Part shown: positions 1 through 11,059 of the stretch, piece after piece
How positions within the stretch are numbered: the stretch's first letter is position 1
Layout of the letters: every line of letters starts with the position of its first letter
Origin: Actinomycetes bacterium
GTDB lineage: Bacteria > Actinomycetota > Acidimicrobiia > Acidimicrobiales > Acidimicrobiaceae
Direction of reading: 5' to 3'
Length of the DNA: 40,992 nucleotides
Assembly: GCA_021822605.1 (NCBI GenBank)
Contig: JAKAQL010000015.1
Coordinates: forward strand, 1-40,992
Made by a program: the position numbers and the translations under genes
The notes under the pieces: generated by a model
The model's database searches: none
Told to the model about the DNA's origin: nothing
What the model saw: the letters and a program-made list of their open reading frames with translations, nothing else

Positions 1-141
1 ATCCTCTTGCTCCTCGTGCCGATCATCCCTGGACTCCGCAAGATTCCAGAGAAGATTCCGTTGTATCGCCTGATCTGGCGTAACTACTACCGTGACCCCG
101 ATTTCACCAACGCAGGAGAGGTACCCGCACAACGGGCCTAG
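1..141 (+). CDS. 3' end of a membrane protein gene paralogous to the cytochrome b partner at 1288-2295 (partial)
   Basis: The reading frame is open from the first base and ends at TAG 139-141. It encodes 46 residues: the end of a hydrophobic segment (ILLLLVPIIPG) and then a basic and acidic tail (RNYYRDPDFTNAGEVPAQ). The tail is the same as the C-terminus of the protein at 1288-2295. The DNA matches 2152-2286 with only two mismatches that I count, then diverges at the last codons. The gene is therefore the 3' end of a tandem paralogue, probably of the same cytochrome bc-type complex. Its 5' part lies outside the window. Confidence 0.85.
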   Translation: MLLLLVPIIPGLRKIPEKIPLYRLIWRNYYRDPDFTNAGEVPAQRA

Positions 142-146
142 TGAAT

Positions 147-194
147 CAACTGAGACAACGTGCGGCTTCCCTACGTTGTCTCAGTTGTCGTTTT
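147..194 (+). terminator. Rho-independent terminator after the truncated paralogue
   Basis: There is a perfect 15-bp inverted repeat, 147-161 against 173-187, with an 11-nt loop. It is followed by TCGTTTT. It starts 5 bases after the stop codon at 139-141 and so separates the upstream module from the cytochrome b gene at 386. Confidence 0.85.
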
Positions 195-385
195 GCTCTG
201 AACGGTATCTGCTGAGTCCAGATTGTAATCCTGGTGGGGCCCTTGCCTGTCCTTCTCTTTGTGTGACTAAAGACTCTAACGCTTGCCCAGTCTCGGGTGT
301 AGGCTCACACTAAGGGTGATGCCGCCGAGGATAGCTCTGTTGTTGGGAGTCTTATTTACGCGCATGCGTTAGAAAGGATACCGCG

Positions 386-2424: not shown

Positions 2425-2497
2425 GGCCCCATCGTCTAGAGGCCTAGGACACCACCCTCTCAAGGTGGAGACACGGGTTCGAATCCCGTTGGGGCTG
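2425..2497 (+). tRNA. tRNA-Glu (anticodon CTC)
   Basis: A 73-nt cloverleaf can be drawn. The acceptor stem pairs 2425-2431 with 2490-2496, with one G-T pair. The anticodon arm CCACC/GGTGG has loop CTCTCAA, giving anticodon CTC. The T arm is ACGGG/CCCGT with loop TTCGAAT. CCA is not encoded. The 3' half from 2456 is duplicated exactly at 9495-9537. It is therefore the attachment site of the integrated element, and the functional gene is restored at the left junction. Confidence 0.95.
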
Positions 2498-2498
2498 C
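2456..2498 (+). repeat. Left attachment site core inside tRNA-Glu
   Basis: These 43 bp are identical to 9495-9537, offset 7039. They span the anticodon loop to one base past the discriminator. The bases on either side differ (C/A on the left, G/C on the right). Confidence 0.95.
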
Positions 2499-2504
2499 GA
2501 CTGG

Positions 2505-2537
2505 TGACCTGCGAAGATGCAGGTCATCGGCATTTTT
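2505..2537 (+). terminator. Terminator of tRNA-Glu, element-borne copy
   Basis: A perfect 8-bp stem, 2505-2512 against 2519-2526, has a 6-nt loop and is followed by TTTTT at 2533-2537. A closely similar hairpin follows the right att copy at 9542-9567. Because it lies inside the element relative to the att core, it probably arrived with the element. Confidence 0.75.
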
Positions 2538-2625
2538 ACCTAAAGTGCGTTAGCGTACATGTGTTCGCTCATGACGTGTTTTGACGCGGTTGTGCGATCT
2601 GTTATCGCACGTTCATCGCACGAAA

Positions 2626-3054
2626 TCAGAGCGCGTGACCCCGGGAGTCGAGCACGACGGTCGAACGGCTTGCGCTCATGGCAAGGAGGCGGGTTTTCTC
2701 GATTTGCGTAGGGTGGCCAACCCGACAGAAAGCCTTTTGGCGCTTCGCAGCGAGCACGACCCAACGCGTGCGGGGTTGTTTCGTGACGGTCACGCCGGGG
2801 AGCGGATCAGCCTTGCCTTCACGCACAGCCTTACGATGTGCCACGACGGCTTGAGGGTCACGGAGGGAGGGGTCGGCGGCTATGGCTGCTTGTGGGTCCG
2901 TGAGCGTGGGCCAGAGCGCCGACCCGCGGGTGCCAACGCTGATGACGACCTGCTCGCCGACTACCTTCCCGATCACAGACTTGCGGCCTTGGGTTTCACA
3001 AGCGGCACAGAGTGCTATGAGTTTCGCACTGTCAGCGGAAGTATTGGCAAACAT
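2626..3054 (-). CDS. Hypothetical protein at the left end of the element
   Basis: This 142-residue open frame starts at ATG 3054-3052 and runs toward the left att. I do not recognise a family. The protein is basic, especially in its C-terminal half (KQPRTRWVVLAAKRQK), and has a CAAC motif near residue 16. It is divergent from the HTH gene at 3191, with a 136-bp intergenic region between. A comparable open frame exists on the other strand (2581-3063). The minus-strand choice rests on divergence from the HTH gene and a more protein-like composition. No clear ribosome site precedes the start. Confidence 0.45.
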   Translation of the reverse strand: MFANTSADSAKLIALCAACETQGRKSVIGKVVGEQVVISVGTRGSALWPTLTDPQAAIAADPSLRDPQAVVAHRKAVREGKADPLPGVTVTKQPRTRWVVLAAKRQKAFCRVGHPTQIEKTRLLAMSASRSTVVLDSRGHAL

Positions 3055-3190
3055 ACGTACTAGTTTAGCGAGGCAATAGGCGGCAAACAGTGATATACTG
3101 GGGTCAGTTGAAGTTGTGCGGTCAGGCCGACACGAATGCCTTCATAGCCACCCTTCGGGTTGTGAGTGAGGCGTTTGGAGTCATGCCCGA

Positions 3191-3364
3191 ATGCTTTTGG
3201 ATTACGACCAAGCCGCAACCTACTTAAACACGTCCGCTCGCCACGTCAGGCAACTTTGGCAAGATCGCAAGCTCAGCGCGGTCAAGGTAGGGCGCCTAGT
3301 TCGCTTCGACACCCGTGACCTGGACAAATTCATAGATGCGAATCGTCACGAGGCGACCCGATGA
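3191..3364 (+). CDS. Excisionase-like small helix-turn-helix protein
   Basis: A 57-residue frame starts at ATG 3191 and ends at TGA 3362-3364, overlapping the next ATG by the ATGA arrangement. It begins MLLDYDQAATYLNTSARHV and continues RQLWQDRKLSAVKVGRLVRF, then DTRDLDKFIDA. That is the MerR-like HTH_17 / excisionase pattern: an AA-x-YL helix-turn-helix, then a wing (KVGRLVRF) and a final helix. Such proteins bind att DNA and favour excision, or act as replication-module regulators in actinobacterial plasmids. It is directly coupled to the rep-like gene, so either role is possible. Confidence 0.8.
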   Translation: MLLDYDQAATYLNTSARHVRQLWQDRKLSAVKVGRLVRFDTRDLDKFIDANRHEATR

Positions 3365-5259
3365 CGGCCTCGCGTGACGAGATCGAGGCAAACGTAGTTG
3401 GGTCTGCTCTACTGCTGGCCGAGAGCGATTCGCCCGCCTTGGGGGAGATGCTCGAAGCGGTGACGCCTCAGGATTTTGCGCTCGAAACTTGGCGCACCGC
3501 CTGGGCTTCGATCACCAAGAGGCACGAGCAAGGCCTAGCTGTCGATGCGGCGTCAATCGCGGGCGGCGATGATGATCTGGCTGTTCGCTTGGTGACCGCC
3601 GAGGCACAAGTTCCATCGATGAAGGCAGGACCGAAGTACGCTCGGGAGCTGGCCCAACTCTCGAAAGATAAGCGCTTGCGTACTGCGCTGCGAGAGGCCG
3701 ACAGGCTTATCGCGGCCGGGGACCGTGAGGGCGCGGCAGCCCTGCTCAGCCCATTTGTGACCAAAGCAAAGAAGGGCGTTCAGAGGTTCCGCACCGTCGA
3801 GATTGATGCATCGCCGCTCAGGAAACCGGACTGGTTGTTAAAAGGCTGGCTCATGAAGGGCTGCCTTCACATGATCGCAGGAAGACCTGGCTGTGGGAAG
3901 TCAACGGTCCTTGCTGCGCTCGTAGCGGGATTGTCACACGGACGAGGGCCTCTAGGGGACGCGATAGAACCCCGTCATATTCGGTGGCTGAGCGTCGAGG
4001 AGCATGAGGATATTGTCACTGCCCGCCTCTACGTGTCTGGCGCCGCGCCTGCCAACGCAAAAAACCTTTCGACGGACGTGGGACCGCTGAGCTTACCTCG
4101 GGACATGGCAACCCTCAAGGAGGAGATGGGCGGGCTTGACCTGCTTGTCATCGACGGATTGGGCTACTCCGTTGGAGGAAGGTCTGAATCTTACCAAGCA
4201 GTCGGCGAGCTCCTTGCTGGCCTCGCGTCCATCGCAGCTGAGACCGGCTGCGCGATCATTGGCATCGCCCACGCGCCTAAAGGCACTGGAAATAGTGACG
4301 CCCCCGTGATCGGGAGCACCGCCTGGACCTCCGTCAGCCGCGTTGTTTGGGTCGTCGGTGACGCACCCGCGACAGGGGAAGGTGAGAACCATGAGCGCAT
4401 CCTCGCGGTAGCTAAGACAAACTTTAAGAAGCCAGAAAGCCTCAGTTTTGTTCTCTCGGAAGACATCGAAACAGAGCTGGCGGTCGCCGTAAACTTTCGC
4501 AGCTCAAACGTGGCGGCATCTGACCTCATGGCCGCGCCAGAGGAACGGAGCGAGCGCGATGATCTCGCGGGCGCCATCCGGGTGATACTCGCCGACGGGC
4601 CAATCGCACGGGGTGACCTTACGAAGAGACTTAAGGCCGAAGGCTTCACTGCGGAGCGGCACGCCGTGAGTAGGGCGATCAAGGCAGTGGGAGCAGTGTC
4701 GAGACCTGGCGAGTTTGGCGGTCCCTTCGTGGTCGAGCTTGCCGACAGAGTGGAACACAGAGTGGTAACGGAGCTTAAAGGGGTTACCAATGTGCCAATG
4801 TGCCAATCTGTTGTGAGCAGGGAGTTTGCAGCCGAAAACGAGGCCGATTCGCCAGAGTGGCAGAGTGGTAGGGACGAAGCGCCACAATGGAAAGAGGACG
4901 ACGAAGACCCCTTCGCTGACGGCTCGGAAGACGACCACCCACCACTCACCGCCGATGAGATCCGCGAGAACGTGAGCGCGGCATTCCCTAACGCCACCGA
5001 GCTGCCACCGGTGCAGAAGCGACCACGACCGCAGTTGCCTACCTCCGCGGGGCCTGACGATGTGAGGCTTTGGGCAGAGATTCGTTTTTGGCTGGATTGG
5101 GAAACTGAGCCGGTGACAGTCACGAGGTTGATGAGCGAGTTCCGTGACAGAGGTGAAGCTAACGTCGGACGGGTGCTGCACCTCGCGGGGCTGCGATTCG
5201 AGGCAGGGAGAGCGGTGATCGATTGGGAGACGGAAAGAGAGGTAAGTGAACGTGCGTAA
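3361..5259 (+). CDS. RepA/DnaB-like AAA ATPase, probable replication protein of the element
   Basis: This 632-residue protein has a DnaB-N-like helical region (about 5-130), then a RecA-fold ATPase domain with Walker A GRPGCGKS at 174-181 and a Walker B-like LLVIDG at 261-266. After that come a winged-helix-like part (about 400-460), an acidic low-complexity linker (about 490-540) and a C-terminal domain. The ATPase resembles the AAA_25/RepA helicase family of plasmids, satellites and phages. Its likely job is to unwind or prime element DNA after excision. It starts at ATG 3361, overlapping the excisionase-like gene. Three 8-bp direct repeats lie within it at 4787-4810. Confidence 0.8.
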   Translation: MTASRDEIEANVVGSALLLAESDSPALGEMLEAVTPQDFALETWRTAWASITKRHEQGLAVDAASIAGGDDDLAVRLVTAEAQVPSMKAGPKYARELAQLSKDKRLRTALREADRLIAAGDREGAAALLSPFVTKAKKGVQRFRTVEIDASPLRKPDWLLKGWLMKGCLHMIAGRPGCGKSTVLAALVAGLSHGRGPLGDAIEPRHIRWLSVEEHEDIVTARLYVSGAAPANAKNLSTDVGPLSLPRDMATLKEEMGGLDLLVIDGLGYSVGGRSESYQAVGELLAGLASIAAETGCAIIGIAHAPKGTGNSDAPVIGSTAWTSVSRVVWVVGDAPATGEGENHERILAVAKTNFKKPESLSFVLSEDIETELAVAVNFRSSNVAASDLMAAPEERSERDDLAGAIRVILADGPIARGDLTKRLKAEGFTAERHAVSRAIKAVGAVSRPGEFGGPFVVELADRVEHRVVTELKGVTNVPMCQSVVSREFAAENEADSPEWQSGRDEAPQWKEDDEDPFADGSEDDHPPLTADEIRENVSAAFPNATELPPVQKRPRPQLPTSAGPDDVRLWAEIRFWLDWETEPVTVTRLMSEFRDRGEANVGRVLHLAGLRFEAGRAVIDWETEREVSERA

Positions 5260-5545
5260 GAAGAACATAACGATTGACGGCGACGCGATTTGGGACTTCG
5301 TGGCGGTGGTGCTTGAAGCTCGCAAGTGGCAGGAGGCAGGAGAGCCACCTCTCGGGTTAGCAGGTCACGTAATGATCACCATGGGGATGGAGGCATTCGA
5401 GAACTTCGCGATCTACGCGGTGCCGTTTTTTTGCGATTGGAAGGATCGAGAACTCGACTACCCGATCAATTCGATTCTGCTTGCCGCGCTGGACGAAGCC
5501 ACCGAGGTTGTGGCCGAGGCCAACGGAGGGCGCGAAAATGCTTGA
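5246..5545 (+). CDS. Small element protein of unknown function (99 aa)
   Basis: The frame starts at GTG 5246 behind AGAGG and overlaps the ATPase gene by 14 bases. It encodes a 99-residue mainly helical, acidic protein with a central hydrophobic stretch (residues about 31-60). No family is recognised. It is the first of six short genes that overlap or nearly overlap, so they are probably one transcript with the ATPase. Confidence 0.6.
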   Translation: MNVRKKNITIDGDAIWDFVAVVLEARKWQEAGEPPLGLAGHVMITMGMEAFENFAIYAVPFFCDWKDRELDYPINSILLAALDEATEVVAEANGGRENA

Positions 5546-5765
5546 GGGCGATTTTAACGCCGTGGAGGCCATGGCTGAGTTCGGTTGGTCCTGGGAGAGA
5601 TTCATCAAGGCGGCAACGGAACTTGAGGCGCAAGGCATGCTGAGACGCCTGGACCCCAACGGCATTTGTTGGGAAGTCCTCGACAAGGAGAGGATACCGC
5701 CCTCGCGAGACTTGCACCGGCTCAGAGGAGCGATCCATCGACCTCAGAATGGGGGCCAGAAATGA
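5538..5765 (+). CDS. Small element protein of unknown function (75 aa)
   Basis: The frame starts at ATG 5538, seven bases after GGAGGG (5525-5530), and overlaps the upstream gene by 8 bases. The 75-residue protein has the pattern of a small winged helix: a helix pair (FIKAATELEAQGMLRRLD) followed by a possible strand (GICWEVLDKERI). This suggests DNA binding, but I cannot name a family. It ends in the start codon of the next gene. Confidence 0.6.
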   Translation: MLEGDFNAVEAMAEFGWSWERFIKAATELEAQGMLRRLDPNGICWEVLDKERIPPSRDLHRLRGAIHRPQNGGQK

Positions 5766-6016
5766 CCGCGACGATCTACCAAACCTCGCTCGCTGCTCAT
5801 ACCGTCGCGCAAGAGGGGGCGCGGCTCAAGGGGCTCGGATCGGCTGATCGCTACGAGGCGATCAAGGCGCTGACGGGTGCAATGGGCGAGGACGAGCTAA
5901 GAGAACTGGCGCGCGTGGCTCTGACCGTAATCACATACGAGGTCGGCACAGAGGCGCTCGCGAACCTGGATCGGATAGGCAGGCACGGTGCAATTTTCGG
6001 AACAGGAGGAAGGTAA
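5762..6016 (+). CDS. Small element protein of unknown function (84 aa)
   Basis: The frame starts at ATG 5762 in an AATGA overlap with the preceding gene and ends at TAA 6014-6016, sharing one base with the next ATG. The 84-residue protein is alanine-rich and helical (for example DRYEAIKALTGAMGEDELRE). No family is recognised. The tight overlap supports co-translation with its neighbours. Confidence 0.6.
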   Translation: MTATIYQTSLAAHTVAQEGARLKGLGSADRYEAIKALTGAMGEDELRELARVALTVITYEVGTEALANLDRIGRHGAIFGTGGR

Positions 6017-6216
6017 TGGCAAGTGAAGTAGAGATTCTTGAGGCCGAGATAAAAGCCCATCAGGCGATGATCGCCGTCAAGGCGGCGAGGTTCGATAGAG
6101 ACGTGCCCTTCAACGAGTTTTGGGAGCTGGTTGGGAAGTTCGCAGAGGCCGTCGGGCACTGGGAGGCGTTGAAGGATGGTGCGAACGATGGAAGGCCGGA
6201 TTTTGAGCAATTCTGA
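6016..6216 (+). CDS. Small element protein of unknown function (66 aa)
   Basis: ATG 6016 lies five bases after AGGAGG (6005-6010), a strong ribosome site. The 66-residue product looks all-helical. The first 25 residues (SEVEILEAEIKAHQAMIAVK) fit a short coiled coil. No family is recognised. Confidence 0.6.
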   Translation: MASEVEILEAEIKAHQAMIAVKAARFDRDVPFNEFWELVGKFAEAVGHWEALKDGANDGRPDFEQF

Positions 6217-6520
6217 CTCCCGCGAAGACGAAGATATCATGACACACTCGGGCCGTGATAAGTGCGAGCCGGAGGACTTCATTTTGCTGATCGCCAACCC
6301 GTGGCTTGACGATGCGCTGGCGGCAATCCGCAAGGGCGACGGCTGGCTGGATGAGGCGCTCGCGGCCATCCATGCGAGTCAGGGATGGCTGGACGAAGTG
6401 CTCGGAGGGAAATTCGGGGTCACGTACAGTGGACAAATGGAAAAGAAAACCGAGGGCTCGGAGCGCGGGTTGAATACACCCATGGAGCATGCATCAGGAG
6501 GTTTACGTGAAGCGGAGTGA
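6176..6520 (+). CDS. Element protein with a 14-residue tandem repeat (114 aa)
   Basis: The frame starts at ATG 6176 behind GGGAGG (6161-6166), although ATG 6188 or 6239 are alternatives. It overlaps the previous gene by 41 bases. Residues 41-54, 55-68 and 69-78 repeat a WLD(D/E)(A/V)L(A/G) unit with a 14-residue period, which is 42 bases in the DNA. Each unit looks like one amphipathic helix led by a tryptophan. No family is recognised; a protein-binding or oligomerising role is conceivable. Confidence 0.55.
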   Translation: MVRTMEGRILSNSDSREDEDIMTHSGRDKCEPEDFILLIANPWLDDALAAIRKGDGWLDEALAAIHASQGWLDEVLGGKFGVTYSGQMEKKTEGSERGLNTPMEHASGGLREAE

Positions 6521-6683
6521 AGTCGAAAAATTAGCGGAGTCGGTCGGAGCTGTGCTCGGGGCAATCGAGAGCGGAGAACTTACGTCCACGCCCTCGATGC
6601 GCTATCGACTTGAGGGGGCCTTGGTCGCGTTGCACGCGGTGCTCGGCGACGCTGCGGACGCTCTCGAAATTCTTTCGCAGTAG
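6507..6683 (+). CDS. Small element protein of unknown function (58 aa)
   Basis: I place the start at GTG 6507 because AGGAGG (6496-6501) sits five bases upstream. An ATG 18 bases earlier has no such site. The 58-residue product is helical (SEVEKLAESVGAVLGAIESG). It is the last gene of the small-gene run, and the serine recombinase promoter begins 5 bases after its stop. Confidence 0.55.
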   Translation: MKRSEVEKLAESVGAVLGAIESGELTSTPSMRYRLEGALVALHAVLGDAADALEILSQ

Positions 6684-6687
6684 TGGC

Positions 6688-6715
6688 TTGAAAGCAAACG
6701 ACCGTTTGCTATAAT
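6688..6715 (+). promoter_or_regulatory. Promoter of the serine recombinase with a palindromic operator in the spacer
   Basis: TTGAAA (6688-6693) and TATAAT (6710-6715) are separated by 16 bp. The spacer is itself a palindrome, GCAAACG-AC-CGTTTGC (6694-6709). The ATG at 6722 is seven bases after the -10 box, about where transcription should begin, so the transcript is likely leaderless. Confidence 0.75.
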
Positions 6716-6721
6716 GTAAGT

Positions 6722-7381
6722 ATGGCACGCACCAAGAAATCCGTAGTCCAAGGGGTCGTCGCTTATCTTCGGGTCAGCACAGAGGAGCAAGCGGTATCCG
6801 GCCTCGGGCTCGCGGCACAAGAGGCGGCGATCAGATCCGAGTGCGAGAGGCGAGGGCTGCCGATCCTGGCTGTCCTCTCGGACGCGGGGATTAGCGCGAA
6901 GACTATCAATCGGCCCGCGCTTACCGAGGCGCTGGCGATGCTCGGACGTGGCGAGGCTAACGTTCTCATGGTCGCCAAGCTCGACCGCCTTACGCGTTCC
7001 GTCCATGACGCTACGGGGCTTTTACTCGAAGCTGAGCGCGGACATTGGGGGCTGGTTGCTCTCGATGCTCCGGTAGACACGACGACCCCACAGGGTGCGG
7101 CAATGGCGCAGGTTCTCGCAGTTTTCGCAGAGCTTGAGCGCAGGTTGATCGGTGAGAGGACAAAGGCAGCTCTGGCGGTCAAGAAAAGTCAAGGGGTCAA
7201 GCTCGGGCGGCCTCGCACCCTCGCAGAGGACGTGGTAGCGCGCATTCGTGGGGCCAAAGACGGAGGGGCTACGTGGTCGGCTATCGCGCGTGAATTGAAC
7301 GCGGAGGGGGTCCCTACAGCACAAGGCGGGGCCACCTGGTACCCGGCGACCGTGCGGTATGTCTACCTTGAGGCGGCGTGA
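6722..7381 (+). CDS. Serine recombinase (resolvase/invertase family)
   Basis: This 219-residue protein has the resolvase catalytic N-terminus AYLRVSTEEQ with the nucleophile at Ser19. It continues with SDAGISAKTINRPAL, VAKLDRLTRS and the FAELERRLIGERT motif that leads into the long helix. A basic GRPRTL hinge and a helix-turn-helix (about 180-219) follow. Its size fits small resolvases and invertases rather than large phage integrases. It could resolve dimers, invert DNA or serve as a second mobility enzyme. The spacer palindrome of its promoter may be its own binding site. Confidence 0.92.
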   Translation: MARTKKSVVQGVVAYLRVSTEEQAVSGLGLAAQEAAIRSECERRGLPILAVLSDAGISAKTINRPALTEALAMLGRGEANVLMVAKLDRLTRSVHDATGLLLEAERGHWGLVALDAPVDTTTPQGAAMAQVLAVFAELERRLIGERTKAALAVKKSQGVKLGRPRTLAEDVVARIRGAKDGGATWSAIARELNAEGVPTAQGGATWYPATVRYVYLEAA

Positions 7382-7468
7382 CTCGACGCTCTGGTATGGC
7401 CGGTGACGCTTTGTGGCGTGTTTGGGGGTATCTTTGAGGTATTGGACGCCTGAAGTAGGGGGGTTGGG

Positions 7469-8308
7469 ATGCTCGTAGCTGCAGCGAGTTCGGGAGGCAC
7501 TGGGAGCACGGTTAGCGGGCTTGTGTTCCTTTTGATTGTGTTGGCGATTATCGGTTGGCTCGGCAAGCGGGCTGTGGAAAAGCGGGAGGCCAAGGCGCAG
7601 GTGTGGGGTGAGTCACTCTCGTCGGTCGGCGCCGATCATTCGATTTGGGTTGGCTCCGCGATTGGCGGTCTCAGGGCTAGCGCAAACCCGTCGACGCTAT
7701 GCGCCTTTACCGATGAGGAGCTGATCTTCATTCCTGAGGAGTTCAGGTATAACTTGCGTTCACCTAGTCACAAACAGTTGGCCATTGGCGAGGCAACGGG
7801 TGCTGCGCCGACAATTGAGCCCATCCCGGAGTTGATGCGAATCAGGCGCGATGCGATTAGCTCAATTTCGTTACGGGACGACAGCCGCACCGAGACTCAT
7901 GTTCAACAGGTCATGACCTCTGCTAAGACGAAGAGTAAGAGTAGGGCTACCTTTGGTTGGCGTGTTTTTGAAGGGTTGCCGTTGGCTCCCTTACGCACGC
8001 GAAGAACTTCTAAGGGCACCATCGACCCGAAATACAAGACCGTGCAGAGTACTACGACTGACGTAAAGCTCATTCTGACGATCGAGTGGGTTGACGATGC
8101 AGGGATCTCCCGGCAGTCGGTGTTTGTCTTTGATGATCGCGATGCAGCTTCGAGGGCCCAACAAGAGCTGGAAGCGGCTCGCAAGCCGTTCGTAAAGCGC
8201 TCTCTGGCAGGCGAGAAGACGTGCCCGTTCTGCGCAGAGACAATCAAAGCTGAGGCTATTAAGTGCCGATTCTGTGGATCGGACCTAGTGGCTGAGGCTG
8301 GGAGCTGA
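7469..8308 (+). CDS. Membrane-anchored protein with C-terminal zinc ribbon
   Basis: This 279-residue protein has one N-terminal membrane segment (about 16-32), a soluble domain of about 200 residues and a zinc ribbon at the C-terminus (CPFCAETIKAEAIKCRFCGSD). The middle includes ILTIEWVDDAGISRQSVFVF and a final helix, a pattern compatible with a PH-like fold. No close family is recognised. It stands alone between the two recombinase genes, where elements often carry cargo. A role in exclusion or defence is only a guess. A G-rich run (AGGGGGGTTGGG) precedes ATG 7469. Confidence 0.65.
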   Translation: MLVAAASSGGTGSTVSGLVFLLIVLAIIGWLGKRAVEKREAKAQVWGESLSSVGADHSIWVGSAIGGLRASANPSTLCAFTDEELIFIPEEFRYNLRSPSHKQLAIGEATGAAPTIEPIPELMRIRRDAISSISLRDDSRTETHVQQVMTSAKTKSKSRATFGWRVFEGLPLAPLRTRRTSKGTIDPKYKTVQSTTTDVKLILTIEWVDDAGISRQSVFVFDDRDAASRAQQELEAARKPFVKRSLAGEKTCPFCAETIKAEAIKCRFCGSDLVAEAGS

Positions 8309-8325
8309 TTGGGTGAGTAGGTGTA

Positions 8326-9465
8326 GTGGCTAGGCGCACGTTCGGGTACGTTCGGAAGCTGCCGAGCGGGCGCTGGCAGGCCTCGTATCTGCATGACGGC
8401 AAGCGGTTCACGGGCGAGCGTACTTACACGGCCAAAGCCGATGCGGATGCGTGGCTCGCCAATGTACACACGGAGATACTCCGGGGCGAGTGGGTCAACC
8501 CTGACCGGGCCTCGACCCTGTTGCATGTCTACGCTACCCGCTGGCTCGACTCCCGCTCCGACCTCCGACCGACTACAAAGGCTAAGTACGCAGGTCTTAT
8601 GCGCTTGCATATCCTGCCGACGTTTGGTCACCTACGGCTCGGAGCTATCTCACCTGATCGGGTGCGGGGCTGGTACTACGGTTTCGACTCGCCCTCGCTC
8701 GCTGATGATGGGTACAGACTCTTACGGGCTATCTTTGCGACTGCGGTGAGCGATGGGTGGCTCGCGCGCTCACCTTGCAAGATCAAGGGCGCCGGGAGTG
8801 TCAAGGCGCCCGAACGGCCTACGGCGTCGATTCCTGAGGTGCTGGCCGCGGCTGAGGCGATGCCTGAGCGCTTGAGGCTTGCGGTACTACTCGCGGCCTT
8901 TGCTCAGCTCCGCAGAGGTGAGGTGCTGGGGCTCACACGAGGGGATATCGACCTTATGCGCGGCGTTGTGTACGTTCGTCGTGCTCTGGTGCAACCGAGC
9001 GGCGCAAGGGCCGAAATCGGGCCGCCAAAGACTGACGCAGGCATTCGTAGCCTCTCGGTTCCTGCGTTCGTTGTAGAGGCTCTGAGGGGGCACCTAGAGG
9101 CGTTCGTGGGGCCTCAGACCGAGGGGTGGTTATTCGGCGCTGGCGATAGGCCGGTCTCGCCTCGCACGCTGGATCGGGCTTGGAACAACGCAAGAGCCTC
9201 GATCAATCGGCCCGACCTTCACTTCCACGACCTACGTCATTCGGGGCTAACGTGGGCCGCGGCTACGGGGGCTTCGGTGGCCGATCTGATGCGTCGCGGA
9301 GGTCATGCTTCGACAGTCGCGGCACTCCGATATCAGCACTCGACGGAGGACCGAGATAGGGCGCTTTCGGAGGCTTTGGGGGGTCTTGCGTCGCCTGTTG
9401 CGGATTTGGATATCGCACGTAGATCGCACGACGAGGCGTTATTAGGCCTCAAAAATAGGGGTTGA
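8326..9465 (+). CDS. Tyrosine integrase
   Basis: This 379-residue phage-type integrase starts at GTG 8326. It has an N-terminal arm-binding domain (GYVRKLPSGRWQASYLHDGK), a SAM-like core-binding domain (about 62-155) and a catalytic domain. Catalytic residues can be assigned as R196 (LRRGEVLGL), K235 (PPKT), H301 and R304 (HDLRH), H327 (GGHAS) and Y336 (RYQHS). The domain is complete. The gene ends 29 bp before the right att repeat and points toward it, consistent with integration in the adjacent tRNA-Glu. Confidence 0.95.
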   Translation: MARRTFGYVRKLPSGRWQASYLHDGKRFTGERTYTAKADADAWLANVHTEILRGEWVNPDRASTLLHVYATRWLDSRSDLRPTTKAKYAGLMRLHILPTFGHLRLGAISPDRVRGWYYGFDSPSLADDGYRLLRAIFATAVSDGWLARSPCKIKGAGSVKAPERPTASIPEVLAAAEAMPERLRLAVLLAAFAQLRRGEVLGLTRGDIDLMRGVVYVRRALVQPSGARAEIGPPKTDAGIRSLSVPAFVVEALRGHLEAFVGPQTEGWLFGAGDRPVSPRTLDRAWNNARASINRPDLHFHDLRHSGLTWAAATGASVADLMRRGGHASTVAALRYQHSTEDRDRALSEALGGLASPVADLDIARRSHDEALLGLKNRG

Positions 9466-9494
9466 ACTGCACAGATAGAAAAAAGTGACTCTAA

Positions 9495-9537
9495 CCTCTC
9501 AAGGTGGAGACACGGGTTCGAATCCCGTTGGGGCTGC
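9495..9537 (+). repeat. Right attachment site, 3' fragment of tRNA-Glu
   Basis: These 43 bp are identical to 2456-2498. The 5' half of a tRNA is missing here, so this is a remnant and not a second gene. It would be the original chromosomal 3' end displaced by integration. Confidence 0.95.
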
Positions 9538-9541
9538 CAAT

Positions 9542-9567
9542 GATGACCTGCGGAGATGCAGGTCATC
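9542..9567 (+). terminator. Terminator-like hairpin, chromosomal copy
   Basis: A perfect 10-bp stem, 9542-9551 against 9558-9567, has a 6-nt loop. It is the counterpart of the hairpin at 2505-2526, with the same stem core and nearly the same loop, but no T run follows. It is probably the original tRNA-Glu terminator. Confidence 0.6.
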
Positions 9568-9823
9568 GTCGTGCTTACCGTGTCGTAAACTCTGTACCCC
9601 AATGAGGGTCACGAATGTTTATCGGCAGGGGATTAAGTGCGTTGGTTCGCTCCTGACCTTCTGGCACAGCTATCGTCACCATATCGACTGAGTTCTTCGG
9701 GGGCAAGTGTTCCCATGGATCCCGGAATGGTTCCATGAGACACAGTGCCTTGATTCCGAAGGTGGAGTGGTTGAACGAGCCCAGCCGTTACCTCTTTGGC
9801 CGTTCGATCGTTCGACACAGTGA

Positions 9824-11059
9824 TCACGCGTTCTCCTCGAGGGCTGGCCGTTTGTATGTCCCCCAGATGACGATCAACGCCGCAACGATAAAGGTGGCTC
9901 CCATGAGAACGAAGGCAGCTCGGAATCCTCCATCGGTCACCGTTACACCGATAATGGCGATCCAGAGCGCTCCTATCGTTTGCGAGACGGTGAAGAAAAC
10001 CCCAAAACCAGCGCGGGACATGCCTGATGGCAGATAGTCGGAAAAGACAGTCTGACGAAGTGACAGCTCCGAGTAGGAGAAGATGCCAATAGCGATGCCA
10101 ACGATGGCGAGACCCAGCAGCCCTCGACCAACGAGAACGAAGAAAAATAGGGCGAGCGCTCCCAGTGCGTAGTTCGCGATCAAGATGATCCGATGATTTT
10201 TCCGATCGGCGATCGACCCCATCAGGATTGGTCCAACGACAGCGCCAGCATACAACAAGGTCAAGATGACCGTCAATCCCAGTGCTGAGAGATGAAGAGA
10301 AGTATGAAGATAGCCAGGTGTATAGACACCGACGATGCCGATGCCTTGTCCGCCTGCGGCAATGGTTCCAGCTAGGAGCAGAGCAAAAACAGGCCGTTGT
10401 GTCATGAGGGTTCGTAGACGGCGCCAAAAACTAACGCTCTCTGGGTGTTGGTCCACCGCGACATCGGTTGGTGGGATGCGGTGCCAAGGTGAAGGGAGCC
10501 AAATGGCGACGACCGCGATGGTAGTGAGGAGGAGGATAGAGAGTAACCAGAAAGCCGCACGCCATCCATAGGCGACAATGATCGAAGGCATGATCAGTGG
10601 GGCCAGGAGCGTTCCGAGGTTTCCGGCTGTGACGTGCCAACTGAGCGTGGTCCCACGGTGTTCGGGGTGTCTGTTGGCGAGATAAGAACCTCCAACTGGG
10701 TGCTGCGGCCAACCAGCGCTGGCCTGCAGGAGCCGACCAGCCATGAAAACGTAGATTCCTGGGGCCAACGCTGCGATGACAGCGCCAATGGTGGACCCGA
10801 CATTCTGGAGAGTGAAGAGGACGCGTGCTGAAGTTCTTCGCACGACCAGCGATAGCGCCTGGAGTGCGCTGCCCACAATCGCGGCGATGGAGAGGAGTAT
10901 GCCGATCGTGGCATAATCGGTATGGAACGCTACGATGACATAGGGAATCGCGATCCCAAGTGACGCGATGTAGGCATGTTGTCCTGCGTGGGACCAACCT
11001 ACTACAACTAAATCCCGTATCCGGTGTTGGTCGCCTTGTCGTGGTACTGGGCTGGTCAA
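9824..11059 (-). CDS. Major facilitator superfamily transporter
   Basis: This 411-residue polytopic membrane protein has about 11-12 hydrophobic segments. The first is at about 16-40 and the second half begins near residue 210. MFS features include GRLLQASAG in the N-terminal half and a loop between segments 8 and 9 with GSIADRKNHR, a typical motif A. The substrate cannot be read from the sequence. An in-frame stop lies two codons before the TTG at 11059, so that TTG is the earliest possible start and no ATG or GTG is near. It lies 82 bp downstream of the PPOX gene on the same strand. Confidence 0.85.
   Translation of the reverse strand: MTSPVPRQGDQHRIRDLVVVGWSHAGQHAYIASLGIAIPYVIVAFHTDYATIGILLSIAAIVGSALQALSLVVRRTSARVLFTLQNVGSTIGAVIAALAPGIYVFMAGRLLQASAGWPQHPVGGSYLANRHPEHRGTTLSWHVTAGNLGTLLAPLIMPSIIVAYGWRAAFWLLSILLLTTIAVVAIWLPSPWHRIPPTDVAVDQHPESVSFWRRLRTLMTQRPVFALLLAGTIAAGGQGIGIVGVYTPGYLHTSLHLSALGLTVILTLLYAGAVVGPILMGSIADRKNHRIILIANYALGALALFFFVLVGRGLLGLAIVGIAIGIFSYSELSLRQTVFSDYLPSGMSRAGFGVFFTVSQTIGALWIAIIGVTVTDGGFRAAFVLMGATFIVAALIVIWGTYKRPALEENA

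Follow-up and report, generated by a model that had tools for sequence, protein, structure and literature searches.

An integrative element inserted in a tRNA-Glu gene was identified near the start of contig JAKAQL010000015.1 (GenBank assembly GCA_021822605.1), from a member of the family Acidimicrobiaceae. The window analysed is the whole stretch of 40,992 nucleotides, and the assembly that holds it (genome G000) consists of 120 contigs and is 95 % complete. The reading given a slight preference here is that the element is a minimal phage satellite, similar to the phage-inducible chromosomal islands (PICIs) and phage-inducible chromosomal minimalist islands (PICMIs), and that it is mosaic with a neighbour in the same genome bearing a gene for a probable terminase small subunit (TerS). 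The grounds of this reading were observed, namely the anatomy of the element, its precise insertion, its relatives in other genomes, purifying selection on the genes common to it and its co-resident, and mosaicism with that co-resident, whose TerS is probable. Features lie on the plus strand unless otherwise stated.

Precise insertion and core genes

The tRNA-Glu(CTC) gene at 2425-2498 is complete (ARAGORN; Rfam RF00005, 62.3 bits) and is the integration site, its 3' part serving as the left attachment site, attL. The last 43 bp of the gene (2456-2498) form the left copy of the attachment (att) core and are repeated exactly at 9495-9537, as the initial annotation had reported, with a core-to-core distance of 7,039 bp. 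A weaker match of 93 nt around the cores (2448-2540 and 9487-9579, 88 %) arises from the terminator-like hairpins that lie downstream of the tRNA sequence on both sides. The tRNA-Glu gene is empty in all five congeners examined (G148, G203, G210, G215 and G219), a sixth, G228, lying outside this count, and a related element occupies the same site in G206. In the five, the tRNA gene joins directly to the sequence of the right flank of the window, and the gene that starts near 9834 is part of this match; in G219 the left flank is visible for only about 110 bp, as the contig stops a little upstream of the tRNA. Since the tRNA-Glu of the congeners runs straight into the right-flank sequence, the 43-bp repeat marks a clean insertion and is not a chance repeat. 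The features generally looked for in an element integrated in a tRNA gene were all found (an integrase, direct att repeats, an intact tRNA and an empty site elsewhere), in agreement with the earlier description of an integrative element in tRNA-Glu.

Twelve open reading frames (ORFs) were considered, one of 142 aa on the minus strand and others of 57, 632, 99, 75, 84, 66, 114, 64, 219, 279 and 379 aa on the plus strand. The three core proteins that had been recognised from the sequence were confirmed by profile searches. The 379-aa tyrosine integrase (8326-9465, GTG start) matches PF00589 (E 7.2e-15) and phrog_1 (E 5.1e-60), contains RRGE, HDLR and GH motifs, and is complete as described. The excisionase-like protein is a 57-aa helix-turn-helix (HTH) protein (3191-3364) that matches HTH_17 (E 1.3e-9), phrog_66 (E 9e-7) and, above the cut-off of 28.8 bits, TIGR01764 (46.1 bits); its match to the HTH of the MADS defence system was below cut-off. 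The RepA-like ATPase corresponds to a 632-aa replication protein (Rep; 3361-5259) with a DnaB-like N-terminal region and an AAA_25 RepA-like ATPase with Walker motifs (AAA_25, E 5.8e-26; phrog_19, E 5.6e-16). The DnaB N-terminal domain of this protein falls just under the Pfam cut-off, its sole match in the PDB is a weak one to RepA (chain 1g8y, E 0.007), and the ATPase matches five phage-genome records at no more than 27 % identity. Two further genes had not been listed in the initial annotation, a 219-aa serine recombinase of the resolvase/invertase type (6722-7381; PF00239, E 7.2e-37; 40 % identical to its counterpart in genome G200) and a divergent ORF on the minus strand (2626-3054), which is kept in related elements.

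The statement that the element lacks recognisable virion or transfer genes also held, as no virion, terminase, relaxase or FtsK/TraB translocator gene was found at a credible score among the 12 ORFs (Pfam, PHROGs), nor any structural or lytic phage gene. No relaxase was matched in Pfam, oriT not being searched for, and no ORF reached the cut-off for FtsK/SpoIIIE (PF01580), the Rep scoring 11.5 bits against the 24 needed. An intact prophage is ruled out by the lack of any structural gene. A known defence island was likewise rejected, PADLOC run on 10 ORFs having matched only the Walker motif of the ATPase.

Gene block in common with a second element, and relatives elsewhere

Genome G000 holds a second element on contig C88 (L066, 7235-13517), inserted in tRNA-Ala(TGC) with a 50-bp repeat (98 %) 6.2 kb apart, and encoding an integrase, an HTH protein, an 876-aa TOPRIM/DUF3987 primase and a 146-aa TerS-like protein, P0017. 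Positions 5712-6210 of the window align with this element over 494 columns at 80 % identity; the block begins within the last part of the 75-aa ORF and runs about 30 bases into terS. The 84-aa ORF (5762-6016) is 83 % identical over 83 aa between the two elements, and the 66-aa ORF (6016-6216) is 64 % identical to its counterparts in the tRNA-Ala elements of both G000 (over 64 aa) and G219 (over 53 aa). With ratios of nonsynonymous to synonymous differences (pN/pS) of 0.28 and 0.36, respectively, these two ORFs are real genes under purifying selection. The 84-aa ORF was found in 1 of the 42 family genomes, at its two places in G000.

On one side of the block, the product of the 75-aa ORF (5538-5765) is similar to the C-terminal region of the C88 primase, at 36 % identity over 69 aa (E 8e-10, one pairwise comparison). 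On the other side, a 114-aa ORF (6176-6520) replaces terS in the window and has only the first codons in common with it in the alignment with C88; three near-repeats of a WLD(E/D)xL motif were seen in this ORF. The two elements are thus set apart by a swapped replication gene to one side of the block and by a swap involving terS to the other side. A run of 69 bp (5954-6022) is identical in both, a length reached in none of 20,000 permutations. This run may be a tract of recent exchange or a cis-acting site; no notable fold was predicted for it, and it is a candidate packaging site only.

The TerS-like protein matches phrog_645 (E 1.3e-27) and 361 phage-genome records. Within the best 25 of the 361, the top-scoring matches fall on gene 1 of Arthrobacter phages, which in several cases is named as a terminase small subunit. 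In three of the four phage records read (Bolt007, mu1/6 and Jace), the homologue stands directly before the terminase large subunit (TerL) and portal genes, and pairwise comparison gives each of the three satellite TerS-like proteins a better score against Bolt007 and mu1/6 than against gp66 of Gordonia phage Wooper. By these comparisons the protein is probably, though not certainly, a phage TerS. Homologues occur in 3 of the 42 family genomes (G000, G219 and G207), each near integrase and primase genes. The one in G219 belongs to a 6.9-kb sister element in the same tRNA-Ala gene (C70, L069), and the G207 locus (C79; L082, 4286-10495) has in a row an integrase, a DUF3987 primase, a RusA-like nuclease, the TerS-like gene and a minor-tail-like ORF, with no tRNA or clear att repeat found there. 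The neighbours of the G207 locus look chromosomal by eye.

Relatives of the window element flanked by att repeats were found in two other genomes. That of G039, related at the order level, lies between 56-bp tRNA-Gly repeats 7.2 kb apart, and its integrase (72 % over 368 aa), HTH protein (55 %) and divergent ORF (35 %) resemble those of the window; its Rep, with TOPRIM and AAA_25 domains, is in two frames (L015, 8514-10465), through either decay or assembly error. The element of G200, related at the family level, lies between 58-bp tRNA-Ile repeats (98 %) 5.3 kb apart, with an integrase (34 %), serine recombinase (40 %), Rep (29 %), HTH protein (57 %) and distant divergent ORF. The layout common to all three is a divergent ORF, HTH gene, Rep gene and integrase gene between att repeats. 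In G206 the tRNA-Glu gene holds a homologous left end only, with 80 % identity across about 200 bp and an arm-like motif, the contig ending there. The divergent-ORF profile was matched in 2 of the 42 family genomes (G000 and G200), and the Rep profile in 14 of the 42, along most of its length only in G000 and G200. Decayed integrase pieces with stops occur in G203 (C23) and G201 (C17). Judged by these homologies, the element lineage is real but rare. A locus in G181 (L016) with a 44-bp tRNA-Val repeat 13 kb apart was rejected as a sister, since by eye much of the interval resembles a transporter operon. A plasmid search with the ATPase and the element DNA found no relatives, and a scan of genome contigs gave one weak match.

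Minor genes and sequence features

Overlaps of 1 to 41 bp between neighbouring ORFs, from the HTH gene to the 64-aa ORF, suggest a single operon. Within this row, the 99-aa ORF (5246-5545, GTG start) belongs to no family in Pfam or PHROGs, the match of the 75-aa ORF to Imm70 was below cut-off, and the 64-aa ORF (6489-6683) shows a weak similarity, 36 % over 39 aa (E 2e-4), to a segment of a 148-aa ORF in the G200 element. The divergent 142-aa ORF has CxxC and CxxGH motifs and is 35 % identical to the G039 ORF (E 1e-21), and a profile also finds the G200 counterpart. It occupies the regulator position and is possibly a regulator, matches no known family (Pfam, PHROGs), and had no match in phage genomes. 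The 279-aa protein (7469-8308), with a predicted N-terminal membrane helix and a C-terminal zinc ribbon, is probably cargo; its Pfam zinc-ribbon matches are weak and below cut-off, PHROG zinc-ribbon matches were obtained, and five phage-genome records match its zinc-ribbon part only. The structures predicted for the 279-aa and 142-aa proteins had mean predicted local distance difference test scores of 43.3 and 42.5, too poor to use.

A terminator-like hairpin borne by the element (2501-2530; a 13-pair stem followed by CATTTTTACC) stands in place of the native tRNA terminator hairpin, which is located beyond the right attachment site, attR. Six terminator-like sites were counted in the region versus 5.6 in shuffled sequences, which is no excess. 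A repeat search of the window gave two candidate arm-type sites of the integrase, TATCGCACGNNNATCGCACG, one on the left at 2603-2622 and one on the right at 9411-9430 inside the integrase gene. These are the only two window matches with up to two mismatches, and none occurred in 100 shuffles. The G206 relative has a one-mismatch copy at its left end, and the G200 integrase gene has a three-mismatch counterpart at its 3' end; the G039 element has none within three mismatches, despite its 72 % identical integrase, and a three-mismatch match in L043 looks like chance. The 8-mer half-motif ATCGCACG alone is not significant (6 copies versus 2.5 expected, with 5 of 100 shuffles reaching 6). A promoter-like site just ahead of the serine recombinase gene (6688-6715) has 11 of 12 consensus bases, with TG; the scan found three such sites versus 1.7 expected. 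An iteron search returned weak two-copy repeats only. Upstream of the tRNA gene, the start of the window (1-313) repeats the end of a cytochrome-type operon at 1288-2295 (repeat at about 2100-2300; 95 % over about 150 bp), a tandem arrangement that is also found in G203.

Comparison with known systems and alternative explanations

PICMIs of Vibrionaceae (PMC10803314) are described there as spreading without terS, sid or ppi, a precedent for the packaging of an element that has integration and replication genes but none of these three. The window element is like them in its very small size, integrase, small HTH or excisionase-type regulator, replication gene, att repeats and lack of terS, sid and ppi. 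They differ in carrying AlpA and a primase and in having been shown to be mobilised by a virulent phage, whereas the window element has an HTH_17 protein and a RepA/DnaB-like Rep, its mobilisation being hypothetical; the host group would also appear to differ. The combination of int, alpA and prim, mandatory in the published PICMI model as cited, was not found, there being no AlpA match and no primase domain. With the PICIs, including the Staphylococcus aureus pathogenicity islands (PMC6092414), the element has in common an integrase, an excisionase, a replication module, a divergent gene at the control region and the absence of structural or lytic genes (12 ORFs, Pfam and PHROGs), a likeness to which the co-resident tRNA-Ala element adds a terS-like gene. 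Of the modules that PICIs carry in a conserved order (integrase, replication module and master regulator), integrase, HTH and Rep genes are present here, and an ORF of no known family stands at the place of the regulator. The size given there for PICIs is about 12-15 kb, against 7.0 kb (7,039 bp) here, and the window element lacks its own terS and a homologue of a known regulator; some PICIs are stated in the same source to have a cos site instead of TerS.

Elements of the actinomycete integrative and conjugative element (AICE) type of pSAM2 (PMC3218068) are similar in tRNA integration, int and xis genes and an autonomous Rep, as far as the cited passages describe them, but the window element is without FtsK/TraB and its Rep is of another family. 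RepAM (PF12307) and Prim-Pol (PF09250) are unlisted for this Rep at E up to 1, RepSA, for which that survey gives no Pfam model, standing outside the test, and an AICE is ruled out by the absence of a translocator among the 12 ORFs and by the other Rep family. Candidate PICIs of Mycobacterium, defined by a capsid gene in the cited part of the report (PMC10654092), and the Streptomyces satellites MulchRoom and MiniFlayer, reported there with capsid and packaging genes (PMC10690885), are alike in being satellites or candidates associated with actinobacterial phages; they differ in their capsid genes and, in Streptomyces, terminase and portal genes, none of which is present in the window element. 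The elements of C88 in G000, C70 in G219 and C79 in G207 also have an integrase, a replication protein and a small-gene block, but that of C88 has a TOPRIM/DUF3987 primase and a TerS-like protein in place of the AAA_25 ATPase and 114-aa ORF, and another integrase. By published criteria the window element is not a member of the PICIs (on size), PICMIs or AICEs, and most likely works like a minimal satellite. A survey of actinobacterial prophages (PMC10023795) treats elements below 15 kb, in the cited passage, as possible satellites and points to a lag in validation. No report of compact satellites in this lineage was found in the literature, searched under an assumed taxon name.

From the gene content we infer excision, replication, induction, packaging and a helper phage for such a satellite. 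The integrase, with the HTH protein acting as excisionase, would recombine the 43-bp cores and release a 7.0-kb circle, leaving the tRNA-Glu gene whole; while the element is integrated, its own hairpin would serve as the tRNA terminator. The RepA/DnaB-like ATPase would then replicate the circle, probably with a primase and a polymerase supplied by the host. The small serine recombinase may resolve multimers or have an accessory role. An infecting helper phage would package the circle or a concatemer and inject it into a new cell, where the integrase would insert the element again. Far more speculative, and improbable on present evidence, is a chain of three tiers in which the window element, having no TerS, would be packaged only when the TerS of its neighbour redirects the helper terminase to the common 69-bp site. 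Equally doubtful is the history that goes with it, in which the window element lost TerS or never had it and kept the DNA up to the terS start. If true, the smaller element would be a hitchhiker on the phage as well as on the TerS-bearing satellite.

Several observations weigh against the satellite reading. The element lacks a terS, a capsid gene and any known packaging site, and no primase domain was recognised in it (Pfam). It is rare, the divergent-ORF profile being matched in 4 of 397 order genomes, one of them weakly. Scans of viral contigs with the ATPase, the 84-aa ORF and the 279-aa protein gave no match, and those with the integrase and the TerS-like protein gave one match each, at 29 % and 33 %, with no close relative. 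No helper was seen in the draft assembly of G000, with no match to phrog_2 (TerL) or to the portal family PF04860; of the seven genomes scanned for TerL, a set without G207, G203 and G219 gave two weak matches on other contigs (E 7e-4), and portal matches were found in none of the seven genomes and in 4 of 14 control genomes. As to the TerS assignment, phrog_645 is labelled RNase E, and 295 of the 361 phage records are Mycobacterium phages, whose matches (in a spread of 40 of the 361) are mostly weaker, hypothetical or DNA-binding, and far from gene 1. The homologue gp66 of phage Wooper has no terminase within 3 kb, and for two of the three satellite TerS-like proteins it outscores the terminase-linked gp1 of Jace. 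The original suggestion of a satellite or hitchhiker gains indirect support from the block common with the element bearing the probable TerS, and its helper was not found in G000.

Among the alternatives, the one given most weight, although unlikely, is an integrative mobilizable element, or the remnant of an actinomycete integrative and conjugative element without TraB, moved in trans by a conjugative element. An AICE core without tra would be an integrase-xis-rep set in a tRNA gene, as here, and the AICE survey (PMC3218068) mentions, in the part cited, Frankia elements in which tra or rep is missing, regarding them as either remnants or mobilizable. FtsK-like second matches lie less than 4 kb from integrase matches in G219 (C2, about 16.4-19.9 kb) and G200 (C8, about 21.7-25.0 kb), and given these pairs AICE-like elements may exist in the family. 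However, neither relaxase nor FtsK was found among the 12 ORFs, the Rep is of the AAA_25/DnaB type and has none of the AICE Rep domains listed with Pfam numbers in the cited part of that survey, G000 has a single FtsK, and the gene block is held in common with a TerS-bearing element.

That block also points to phage involvement, and so speaks against a self-contained, plasmid-like integrative element without a vehicle of its own, which would excise, replicate and spread by natural transformation or generalized transduction. Such an element would bring its own genes for integration and replication, with no other recognisable function, as is seen here, and a Streptococcus satellite is reported to be moved by natural competence (PMC13376191, in the passage cited), but no plasmid relatives were found, and this explanation is considered a little less probable again. 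The least credited is a decayed, immobile remnant, for which the decayed integrase pieces in G203 and G201, the lack of transfer genes and the unseen helper could be cited, but the integrase, HTH, Rep and serine recombinase frames are open with their key motifs, the common genes are under purifying selection and the att cores are still identical. The initial annotation had held that a lack of relatives in other genomes would suggest a dead remnant; with att-flanked relatives in G039 and G200 and a left end in G206, the element is not simply a lone dead remnant.

For many islands borne in tRNA genes the vehicle is not known. The satellite reading suggests that compact satellites occur in this lineage, and here a very small island resides beside a TerS-bearing relative with which DNA has been exchanged, so that one strain would suit a test of whether an island can travel in phage particles without packaging genes. 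The same strain would allow a test of whether one hitchhiker can use the packaging gene of another.

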